Positions 3,329 to 42,006 of a DNA stretch of 42,889 nt are shown piece after piece. The stretch lies in NCBI GenBank assembly GCA_014896555.1, contig JADBKC010000008.1, forward strand, positions 1-42,889, written 5' to 3'. Within the stretch, counting starts at the first letter, position 1. Each line of letters begins with the position of its first letter. Below the pieces are notes generated by a model that made no database searches, was not told the DNA's origin, and saw nothing but the letters and a program-made list of their open reading frames with translations. This DNA comes from Caryophanales bacterium. GTDB lineage: Bacteria; Bacillota; Bacilli; Bacillales; DSM-4216. Both the position numbers and the translations under genes were made by a program.

Positions 3329-3444
3329 CTCTTATCTTTCAGATCTATTACAAGATCTGTAGGACTTAGCACCTTTTCAAGCAGTACCGCTTGAAGGTTG
3401 CCGGGCTTCATTGGGCCTAATCCCTCCGCCGCTCTTGATAAGAG
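3329..3444 (-). promoter_or_regulatory. SAM-I (S-box) riboswitch upstream of hom
   Basis: Read on the minus strand, the segment shows the S-box hallmarks in order: P1 5' strand CTCTTATC (3437-3444), AGAGCGGCGGAGGGA, GGCCC-ATGAAGCCCGGCAACC, AGGTGCTAAGTCC, and P1 3' strand GATAAGAG (3329-3336). A terminator follows directly. Known S-box leaders bind S-adenosylmethionine and terminate transcription when it is abundant, so hom should be induced by methionine/SAM limitation. The -10/-35 elements upstream of 3444 are not clear to me. Confidence 0.95.
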
Positions 3445-12576: not shown

Positions 12577-12602
12577 GGGCGCAACAAATAACACCTCCTC
12601 TC

Positions 12603-12750
12603 ACAACGCTTACGAGGTTAGCTGACGGATTCGGGTGATGAGAGTCACCCTACTCATTCAGAACCTGGACAGTTTCTGAACAAGATTCACCCCATGCGAC
12701 CTATAAGATCACAGTTGGTTCCCCCGCTCCTTTCGGACTCAGCGACTATT
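12603..12750 (-). promoter_or_regulatory. ydaO/yuaA-type c-di-AMP riboswitch controlling kdp
   Basis: The minus strand carries the conserved landmarks: GTCGCTGAGTCCGAAAGGAGC, GGGGGAACC, GGGGTGAATC, GTAGGGTGACTC, CACCCGAATCCGTCAGC and TAACCTCGTAAGCG. P1 closes between AGTCGCT (about 12740-12746) and AGCG (about 12607-12610). Known ydaO riboswitches bind c-di-AMP and terminate transcription of potassium-uptake genes. The leader therefore should silence kdp when c-di-AMP, which rises with K+, is high. Confidence 0.95.
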
Positions 12751-12783
12751 AAGGAAATAATGAACTTATGAAATTAATGCCAT

Positions 12784-38545: not shown

Positions 38546-38574
38546 TTGACATCTTGTATATACATGAATACAAT
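38546..38574 (+). promoter_or_regulatory. SigA promoter of treP-treA
   Basis: TTGACA (38546-38551), 17 nt, TACAAT (38569-38574). The -35 and spacing are ideal. A TreR-like operator fills the spacer. Confidence 0.88.
38554..38565 (+). promoter_or_regulatory. TreR operator, proximal copy
   Basis: TTGTATATACAT, one base off the perfect palindrome, between -35 and -10, so repressor binding would block RNA polymerase. Confidence 0.75.
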
Positions 38575-38585
38575 AAAAGTAATTC

Positions 38586-38597
38586 TTGTATATACAA
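38586..38597 (+). promoter_or_regulatory. TreR operator, second copy
   Basis: TTGTATATACAA, a perfect palindrome identical to the known Bacillus TreR core, just downstream of the transcription start and 32 bp (three helical turns) from the first copy. Confidence 0.82.
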
Positions 38598-38680: not shown

Positions 38681-38694
38681 TGAAAACGGTTACG
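38681..38694 (+). promoter_or_regulatory. cre-like site at the treP ribosome binding site
   Basis: TGAAAACGGTTACG matches the cre consensus at 13 of 14 positions and lies immediately before GGAGGGG of treP; bound CcpA could act as a roadblock. Confidence 0.55.
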
Positions 38695-38706: not shown

Positions 38707-40125
38707 ATGAGTGAATATCGTGATTCTGTCCGACAAATCATTGAAGCGCTCGGCGGCAAAGAAAATGTCAACACTGCGACTCACTGCGTTACTCGTCTTC
38801 GTCTCGTTTTAAATGATGAAGAGAAAGTCGACAAACAGAAGTTAGAAAACATTGATCTTGTAAAAGGATCATTTTCTGCAAATGGACAGTTTCAAGTGGT
38901 CATTGGTCAAGGAATTGTGGATAAAGTATATGATGTATTCGTTCAAGAAACCGGCATCGGGACTACCTCGAAAGAAGAGGTGAAAAATGCGGCAGCCCAA
39001 AAAATGAATCCGCTTCAACGTGCGATTAAAGTATTGGCGGATATTTTTATACCGATCCTTCCAGCGATCGTTACAGCCGGTCTCTTGATGGGGATCAATA
39101 ATATTTTAACAGGACAAGATATTTTTTACAAAGAGAAATCCTTTATAGAGGTTCACCAAAATTGGGCCGATATTGCTAGCATGATTAACTTGATTGCCAA
39201 TACGGCATTTACATTCTTGCCAGCATTAATTGGTTGGTCAGCTGTAAAGCGGTTTGGAGGCAGCCCTTTGCTTGGGATCGTACTGGGCTTAATGCTTGTT
39301 CACCCAGATTTGCTGAATGCTTGGGGCTATGCTGAAGCGAAAGCAAAAGGCGCCATCAAGTATTGGGATTTATTCGGATTGAAAGTTCAGCAAGTCGGTT
39401 ATCAAGGACAAGTATTGCCGATTTTGTTTGCTTCCTATTTGCTGGCAAAAATCGAAGTATTTTTGAACAAACGTGTTCATGACTCCATAAAGTTGCTAGT
39501 TGTAGCACCAGTCGCATTGCTCATTACCGGATTCGCCTCGTTTATTATCATTGGTCCAGCCACTTTCTGGCTTGGTAATGAAATTACGTCAGGGATTGTA
39601 TGGATCTTTGACCACTTTGCATGGCTTGGTGGACTGATTTACGGAGGATTATATGCAGTCCTTGTCATTACGGGAATGCATCACACCTTCTTGGCCGTCG
39701 ACTTGCAGCTGATCGGAACGACTGGAGGAACTTTCTTATGGCCAATCCTCGCTCTTTCTAATATCTCTCAAGGATCAGCAGCATTGGCGATGATGTTTTT
39801 GGCTAAGAAAAACCAAAAATTGCGCGGCCTTTCAGGAACCGCAAGCCTATCCGCTTATTTAGGAATTACGGAACCAGCGATGTTTGGTGTCAACTTGCGG
39901 TATCGCTACCCATTTATTAGCGCTCTGATTGGATCGGCCATTGCGGGCATGATTCTCTCCATTGGCAAAGTGAATGCTTTTTCCATCGGAGTTGGAGGTT
40001 TACCGGGATTTTTGTCCATTAAACATCCATTCTGGGGAACATTTTTCCTTGGAATGGGGATCGTGCTCGTAGTTCCATTTATTCTCACGATCATTTTTAG
40101 CAAATTTTCAAAAGAAGAAATTTAA
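38707..40125 (+). CDS. treP: PTS trehalose transporter subunit IIBC
   Basis: A 472-residue enzyme II that imports trehalose and phosphorylates it to trehalose-6-phosphate. The IIB domain (about 1-90) has the phosphorylated cysteine in TATHCVTRLRLVL. The IIC domain (from about 105) has about ten helices with the conserved GMHHTF and GITEPAMFG motifs. GGAGGGG lies 6 nt before the ATG at 38707; an upstream in-frame ATG at 38680 lacks a site. No IIA domain is encoded, as in B. subtilis, where a glucose-type IIA serves. Confidence 0.95.
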   Translation: MSEYRDSVRQIIEALGGKENVNTATHCVTRLRLVLNDEEKVDKQKLENIDLVKGSFSANGQFQVVIGQGIVDKVYDVFVQETGIGTTSKEEVKNAAAQKMNPLQRAIKVLADIFIPILPAIVTAGLLMGINNILTGQDIFYKEKSFIEVHQNWADIASMINLIANTAFTFLPALIGWSAVKRFGGSPLLGIVLGLMLVHPDLLNAWGYAEAKAKGAIKYWDLFGLKVQQVGYQGQVLPILFASYLLAKIEVFLNKRVHDSIKLLVVAPVALLITGFASFIIIGPATFWLGNEITSGIVWIFDHFAWLGGLIYGGLYAVLVITGMHHTFLAVDLQLIGTTGGTFLWPILALSNISQGSAALAMMFLAKKNQKLRGLSGTASLSAYLGITEPAMFGVNLRYRYPFISALIGSAIAGMILSIGKVNAFSIGVGGLPGFLSIKHPFWGTFFLGMGIVLVVPFILTIIFSKFSKEEI

Positions 40126-40135
40126 TGGAAACATT

Positions 40136-40170
40136 AGGGGTCAATCGCTTAGCCTTGACCCCTCTCTGTT
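40136..40170 (+). terminator. terminator-like hairpin between treP and treA
   Basis: AGGGGTCAA (40136-40144) and TTGACCCCT (40155-40163) form a 9-bp perfect stem followed by CTCTGTTTT, 10 nt after the treP stop. It would reduce transcription of treA relative to treP. Confidence 0.7.
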
Positions 40171-40252
40171 TTGAACCACTTGAAAAAGAATTGTTAGTCA
40201 AATGGAATAGGAGTACTTTTTTCACATTGATTCCCTGTTCTACTACACCAAG

Positions 40253-40335
40253 AAAGGAGGAAGCACAGGAAGCGGTTTTGCTAAACGTTAGCTGTTCCCC
40301 TCTTATTTGAGGCGGGGTTTTCCTGTGCAGCGAAA
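40253..40335 (+). promoter_or_regulatory. structured treA leader: Shine-Dalgarno separated from the start codon by a folded RNA
   Basis: The only strong ribosome binding site before treA, AAAGGAGG, lies at 40253-40260, 75 nt from the ATG at 40336. Between them GCACAGGAA (40263-40271) and TTCCTGTGC (40320-40328) form a perfect 9-bp closing stem. Inside it are two perfect hairpins: GCTAA-acg-TTAGC (40280-40292) and CCTC-ttattt-GAGG (40299-40312). Folded as a three-way junction, the RNA brings the Shine-Dalgarno to about 9 unpaired nt from the start codon. No in-frame start exists nearer to it. CCCC..GGGGTTTT inside could alternatively act as a weak terminator. Confidence 0.6.
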
Positions 40336-42006
40336 ATGAAGCAGCCATGGTGGAAAAAAGCTGTAGTATATCAAATTTATCCCAAAAGCTTCTATGATGC
40401 TTCCGGCGACGGAATTGGCGATATTAAAGGAATCACAGCCAAACTTGACTATTTAAAAACACTAGGCATTGACTGTATTTGGATTACTCCTATTTATCAA
40501 TCGCCTCAAAGGGATAATGGTTATGACATAAGCGATTATTATTCCATCGATGAAACATACGGAACGATGGATGACTTTAACGAGCTTTTAAAAGAAGCCC
40601 ATAAACGGGAAATCAAAGTGATCATGGATATAGTTGTAAACCATACTTCCACAAAACATTCATGGTTTATCGAATCGCGGAAATCGAAAGAAAGTCCGTA
40701 CCGCGATTTTTATATTTGGAAAGATGGCAAAGAAAACGGCGAGCCCCCAACCAATTGGGAGTCAAAATTCGGGGGATCGGCTTGGCAATATGACGATGAG
40801 ACTGGCCAATATTATTTGCACCTATTTGACGTGACACAAGCGGACTTAAATTGGGAAAACGAAACATTGCGAAAAAAACTATACAATATGATGCATTTTT
40901 GGCTTCAAAAAGGAGTCGATGGCTTCCGTCTCGATGTGATAAACTTGATTTCCAAAGACCAGCACTTTCCGGACGATCCAACAGGGGACGGGCGAAAATT
41001 TTATACCGACGGCCCCCGCATTCATGAATATTTGCAAGAAATGAACCGTGAAGTGTTTTCCCAATACGACATCATGACGGTCGGGGAAATGTCCTCCACT
41101 ACGATAGAGAACTGTATTCTTTACACACATCCAGACCGCCGGGAATTAAATATGACGTTCCATTTTCATCATTTGAAAGTGGATTATCCAAACGGCGAAA
41201 AATGGGCAAAAGCAGAGTTTGATTTTCAACAATTAAAAACGATTCTGTCTACCTGGCAAACGAAAATGCAGGAAGGCGGAGGATGGAATGCTCTCTTTTG
41301 GTGCAATCACGACCAGCCTAGAATTGTCTCCCGCTATGGAGACGACGGCCGCTATCGAGTGGAATCGGCCAAAATGCTTGCCACCACGATCCATATGATG
41401 CAAGGGACTCCTTATATTTATCAAGGAGAAGAAATTGGAATGACCAATCCTTATTTCAAATCGATTGAAGAATATCGGGATGTGGAATCTCTGAATATGC
41501 ACAAAATTTTGCTTGAGCAAGGAAAAAGCGAAGCCGAGGTAATGGAAATTCTCATGCAAAAATCACGCGATAACTCGCGGACACCTGTTCAATGGAACGA
41601 TCAGGAAAATGCCGGTTTTACAACTGGGACTCCTTGGATTGGACTAGCTAAAAATTATAAGGAAATTAATGTAGAAAAAGCGCTTGAAGATCCCGATTCT
41701 ATTTTCTATCACTACCAAAAATTAATTAAGCTGCGAAAACAATATGATATCGTGACAGAAGGAGATTACCAGCTGATCTTAAAAGATGACCCTCAAATTT
41801 TTGCTTATCTTCGCACAGGACAAGGTGGAGAAAAGCTGCTCGTGGTAAACAACTTTTTTTCCAAGGAAACGATATTTGAAAAACCGGAATTTCTAGAGGC
41901 AGATTCTGGTGAAGTACTGCTTTCTAATTATATAGACACACCAGAGCATTTCCGCCGACTCGTGCTGCGCCCGTTCGAGTCTGTTGTATATTATATTGGT
42001 GGCTAG
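40336..42006 (+). CDS. treA: phospho-alpha-(1,1)-glucosidase TreA (trehalose-6-phosphate hydrolase)
   Basis: A 556-residue GH13 enzyme splitting trehalose-6-phosphate into glucose and glucose-6-phosphate. The catalytic residues are Asp in GFRLDVIN, Glu in VGEMSS and the transition-state Asp in NHDQPR. The start MKQPWWKKAVVYQIYPKSF matches the family, so the ATG at 40336 is right although no Shine-Dalgarno is adjacent. An oligo-1,6-glucosidase is the closest alternative family member; the treP neighbour decides. No treR follows, unlike in B. subtilis. Confidence 0.94.
   Translation: MKQPWWKKAVVYQIYPKSFYDASGDGIGDIKGITAKLDYLKTLGIDCIWITPIYQSPQRDNGYDISDYYSIDETYGTMDDFNELLKEAHKREIKVIMDIVVNHTSTKHSWFIESRKSKESPYRDFYIWKDGKENGEPPTNWESKFGGSAWQYDDETGQYYLHLFDVTQADLNWENETLRKKLYNMMHFWLQKGVDGFRLDVINLISKDQHFPDDPTGDGRKFYTDGPRIHEYLQEMNREVFSQYDIMTVGEMSSTTIENCILYTHPDRRELNMTFHFHHLKVDYPNGEKWAKAEFDFQQLKTILSTWQTKMQEGGGWNALFWCNHDQPRIVSRYGDDGRYRVESAKMLATTIHMMQGTPYIYQGEEIGMTNPYFKSIEEYRDVESLNMHKILLEQGKSEAEVMEILMQKSRDNSRTPVQWNDQENAGFTTGTPWIGLAKNYKEINVEKALEDPDSIFYHYQKLIKLRKQYDIVTEGDYQLILKDDPQIFAYLRTGQGGEKLLVVNNFFSKETIFEKPEFLEADSGEVLLSNYIDTPEHFRRLVLRPFESVVYYIGG

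Follow-up and report, generated by a model that had tools for sequence, protein, structure and literature searches.

A predicted folded spacer between a strong Shine-Dalgarno sequence and the treA start codon: a probable split ribosome binding site in a Caryophanales bacterium and Bacillus smithii

Two adjacent genes for trehalose utilization, treP and treA, are located near the 3' end of the window (the complete analyzed stretch of 42,889 nucleotides, contig JADBKC010000008.1 of a Caryophanales bacterium). The two genes and the elements of the leader between them, all on the forward strand, are as follows:

38707-40125 (+), treP, trehalose-specific PTS EIIBC (TIGR01992, 687.8 bits, above cut-off)
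40136-40163 (+), hairpin of 9 bp directly 3' of treP (AGGGGTCAA/TTGACCCCT), read from the sequence
40251-40260 (+), distal Shine-Dalgarno (SD) sequence AGAAAGGAGG, a 10-nt perfect complement of the Bacillus anti-SD
40263-40271 (+), 5' arm of the bridging stem, GCACAGGAA (sequence and folding)
40272-40295 (+), inner hairpin 1, predicted by folding, imperfect, sequence not conserved
40296-40316 (+), inner hairpin 2, predicted by folding, one bulge, sequence not conserved
40320-40328 (+), 3' arm of the bridging stem, TTCCTGTGC (sequence and folding)
40329-40335 (+), spacer AGCGAAA, single-stranded and without usable SD (sequence and local SD pairing)
40336-42006 (+), treA, alpha,alpha-phosphotrehalase (phospho-alpha-1,1-glucosidase; TIGR02403, 898.2 bits, above cut-off)

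The treP gene has an ordinary ribosome site of its own (GGAGGGG preceding the ATG), in agreement with the original prediction made from the sequence alone. This site is adjoined by a near-consensus CcpA cre-like site (TGAAAACGGTTACG, 38681-38694), and two TTGTATATACAT/A-type palindromes, which we take to resemble TreR operators, are found further upstream (38554-38565 and 38586-38597). Elsewhere in the window, a SAM (S-box) riboswitch (3329-3444) and a c-di-AMP (ydaO) riboswitch (12593-12754), both on the reverse strand, score above the gathering score. A scan of the region between treP and treA revealed neither a promoter nor a canonical terminator. The hairpin following treP has a weak T tail and is terminator- or processing-like, but the terminator scan did not report it. 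Both the 3' half and the tail recur in B. smithii (GCCTTGACCCCTCTCTGTTTT), similar hairpins are found between treP and treA of several other Bacillales, and the element is possibly an attenuator or a 3'-end stabiliser of treP.

The start of treA is secure, since the encoded protein (N-terminus MKQPWWKK) aligns with its relatives from residue 1 and a TAA at 40282 closes the frame upstream; no in-frame ATG, GTG or TTG is present between this stop and the treA ATG. Direct reading of the leader yields the order AGAAAGGAGG, AA, GCACAGGAA, 48 nt, TTCCTGTGC, AGCGAAA and ATG 40336. As originally predicted, the distal SD ends 75 nt (linear) from the ATG and no closer ribosome site was found in the leader, local SD pairing at treA being weak (-4.1 kcal/mol, and -1.5 kcal/mol in B. 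smithii). Likewise, the gap is indeed closed by a 9-bp perfect stem (40263-40271/40320-40328), the whole structure comprising 66 nt and leaving 2 + 7 = 9 nt outside the stem. The inner hairpins had also been described as perfect, which does not hold for the predicted fold: hairpin 1 contains mismatches and hairpin 2 a bulge.

The sole congener available for comparison was Bacillus smithii (chromosome of 3,368,778 bp; treA locus L004, G001:C1 426211-430872), such that conservation within the genus is read from two sequences. The two treA genes share 94 % protein and 91 % DNA identity. The B. smithii leader has the identical 10-nt SD (10/10), a gap of 76 nt and no local SD; thus, in both genomes the SD is placed at a non-functional linear distance from the start codon, with no nearer SD. 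The stem arms are identical at 17 of 18 positions (8/9 in the 5' arm, 9/9 in the 3' arm), whereas the enclosed interior displays 29 matches versus a shuffled mean of 27.1, a value reached by 21 % of the shuffles. Ahead of the SD leader, a stretch of 115 nt aligns poorly between the congeners (68/132 columns). The distance between treP and treA is considerably larger in B. smithii than in the window, the surplus sequence being located before the SD. The only difference in the arms, G-C to A.C at the base of the stem, breaks a pair, and no compensatory change is found between the two sequences. Since the B. smithii interior is predicted to extend the stem into a single long hairpin, the closing stem rather than the three-way junction appears to be the conserved part; the originally proposed junction is retained for the fold of the window and is not shared by B. 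smithii. Leader-peptide attenuation or reinitiation was considered as well and rejected, since neither species has an ATG, GTG or TTG at normal spacing (4-13 nt) after the distal SD; the closest TTG (40278) follows the SD at 17 nt, in a frame that is not conserved.

Outside the genus, ~108 other treA genes of Bacillales were compared, nearly all of which carry an ordinary SD no more than 15 nt from the start codon (local SD pairing of about -7 to -15 kcal/mol), and loss of the local SD among these relatives is confined to the genus of the window. One apparent exception (L065) proved to be a mis-picked start, the conserved ATG following AAGAATGGTGC; in case of a second one (L091) the match starts inside the gene, which places its leader outside the comparison. 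An ordinary ribosome site in relatives had been named at the outset as evidence against the proposed role of the stem; such sites are present in other families, but not in the congener, which shares the feature. For this reason the split leader would represent a trait of the genus and not a chance feature of a single genome, as judged from the available leaders.

The unit of SD plus arms has no second copy in the genome of the window or in B. smithii and is absent from up to 395 further genomes. This bears on the insertion of a mobile palindrome or terminal-inverted-repeat element behind the SD, which the original prediction had offered as an alternative. Inverted repeat ends enclosing a differing interior and absence from other families would fit such an element, but the multiple dispersed copies of mobile palindromic repeats were not found in the genomes searched, the single copy occupies the same position in both genomes, and the interiors are unrelated though ends and position match; such an insertion is therefore extremely improbable. 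The arms might also act at the DNA level, with CACAGGAA and TTCCTGTG as half-sites for a DNA-binding protein and no RNA folding. Their conservation without covariation and a spacing kept within 1 bp agree with this explanation. However, the arms sit within the treA leader after the SD, the arm pair has no other copy in either genome at the searched spacing while regulators usually have several sites, the scan found no promoter-like site nearby, and the missing local SD is left unexplained, rendering DNA-level half-sites quite unlikely.

Folding of the wider 106-nt stretch is not unusual compared to shuffles (z -0.61), that of the 75-nt gap alone is moderately unusual (z -2.4) and that of the B. 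smithii gap strongly so (z -7.5). A flush perfect stem of at least 9 bp arises in 1.6e-4 of the mononucleotide shuffles of the window gap, and a stem score of at least 22 in 0.0064 of its dinucleotide shuffles (0.0015 in case of the B. smithii gap); the shuffle statistics of the window gap alone are suggestive only. Most pairs of the outer stem are predicted to form with a probability of ~0.9 or more from 37 to 65 °C in both species, most stem pairs reaching ~0.98 at 55 °C, while SD and AUG are predicted to be open. With the stem folded, the predicted effective spacing decreases from 75 to ~9 nt in the window, matching the distance originally proposed, and from 76 to ~11 nt in B. smithii.

These predictions also bear on a conditional switch that would turn treA on by formation of the stem, whether as a thermosensor, a protein-gated site or a ligand riboswitch. 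A bridge that needs to fold could be naturally switchable, and both genomes may be assigned to a thermophilic lineage, B. smithii having been described as thermophilic (PMC4995803). However, little thermal switching is to be expected from a stem predicted to be stable from 37 to 65 °C. The riboswitch-like control considered in the original prediction finds no support: conservation would be expected of a ligand-binding core, whereas the interior is at shuffled-level identity, which speaks against an aptamer, and no Rfam family matches at the site. Overall, a conditional switch is highly unlikely.

A survey for bridged starts covered 2.4 Mb of B. smithii with 2,241 ORFs, 71 starts being eligible (strong distant SD, no local SD). 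Only treA (score 26) attained a bridging stem score of at least 20, as compared to 0.32 expected from shuffles, and no second convincing bridged gene was found in these 2.4 Mb, where ORFs were called mechanically and weak cases could be missed. A looser bridge scan in B. smithii mainly picked up starts inside genes, 3' of the true start, and these were discarded.

Since B. smithii retains the SD, the arms and the effective spacing despite a diverged interior, the treA leader is best interpreted as a split (accommodated) ribosome binding site, a reading to which we assign a probability of roughly 70 %; of the interpretations offered originally, structure-dependent initiation is thus the one that fits. 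In this model, the 30S subunit would dock on the exceptionally strong AGAAAGGAGG, and the 66-nt stem structure between SD and ATG would stay folded, cutting the spacing to ~9 nt (~11 nt in B. smithii) and thereby allowing the AUG to reach the P site. The enclosed sequence would merely have to be folded aside, a requirement that would account for an interior that drifts between arms that are kept. We infer in vivo folding of the stem and initiation across it by the ribosome, and that TreA output is thereby set apart from that of TreP. The bridging structure, kept in the sole congener and absent outside the genus, restores functional spacing by prediction. Counting against a split site are arm pairs without covariation and an inner architecture that is not common to both sequences, the unremarkable folding of the wider stretch, and a looped-out unit that is ~4 times the 16-17 nt of phage T4 and may not fit within the 30S subunit. 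That folding of the bridged site is actively gated, be it co-transcriptionally, by an RNA helicase or by another protein, and sets the TreA/TreP ratio is an unlikely extension.

Alternatively, the SD may act as a STAB-SD-like stabiliser, binding the 30S subunit non-productively and blocking RNase J1 from the treP side, with the hairpin adding protection and treA starting with little SD help. A strong SD far from the start in a 5' UTR is a known Firmicute stabiliser, as in cry3A mRNA (PMC4113751), and a processed 5' end could follow the hairpin located behind treP. Such a function would, however, practically deprive treA of a ribosome site (local pairing of -1.5 kcal/mol in B. smithii) and accounts neither for the arm placement giving 9-11 nt effective spacing nor for arm conservation. 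We consider it doubtful as the explanation of the leader, although a stabilising role could coexist with bridging or replace it. The treA and cry3A leaders are both Bacillus leaders with a strong SD-like sequence at a long distance 5' of the start codon; a STAB-SD does not direct initiation, whereas treA lacks a second usable site.

A split ribosome binding site is also described for E. coli thrS (PMC3936740), where, as proposed for treA, a long hairpin is accommodated by the ribosome without unfolding. That paper, however, regards the structured modules of thrS as standby sites 5' of the SD (PMC3936740), whereas in treA the structure is flanked by the SD and the AUG. Documented examples of initiation across a folded spacer are rare; those identified are two T4 genes, and literature searches under other wordings for bacterial hairpins between SD and AUG returned none. 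If correct, the treA leader would provide a chromosomal bacterial case with a spacer ~3 times longer, present in two species with the loop sequence randomised, implying that bacteria use the same trick. It would further test the size of structure tolerated by the 30S subunit between SD and P site, and would serve as a warning that genes of this kind escape gene finders and ribosome-site models.

The closest counterparts are T4 genes 38 and 25, in which a structure between SD and AUG cuts the spacing (gene 38, 22 to 5 nt; gene 25, 27 to 11 nt) and destabilising the intervening structure lowers initiation (PMC3014915). As in these genes, RNA structure in the treA leader would bring an overlong spacing to a functional distance, and, as in case of gene 25, the arrangement is lineage-restricted. 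Differing from T4 (gaps of 22-27 nt, 16-17 nt removed), the treA gap measures 75-76 nt with a structure of 65-66 nt, and it is located in a bacterial metabolic operon together with an unusually long SD. Thus, the treA leader probably represents a larger version, in a bacterial operon, of the split-site arrangement known from phage T4.
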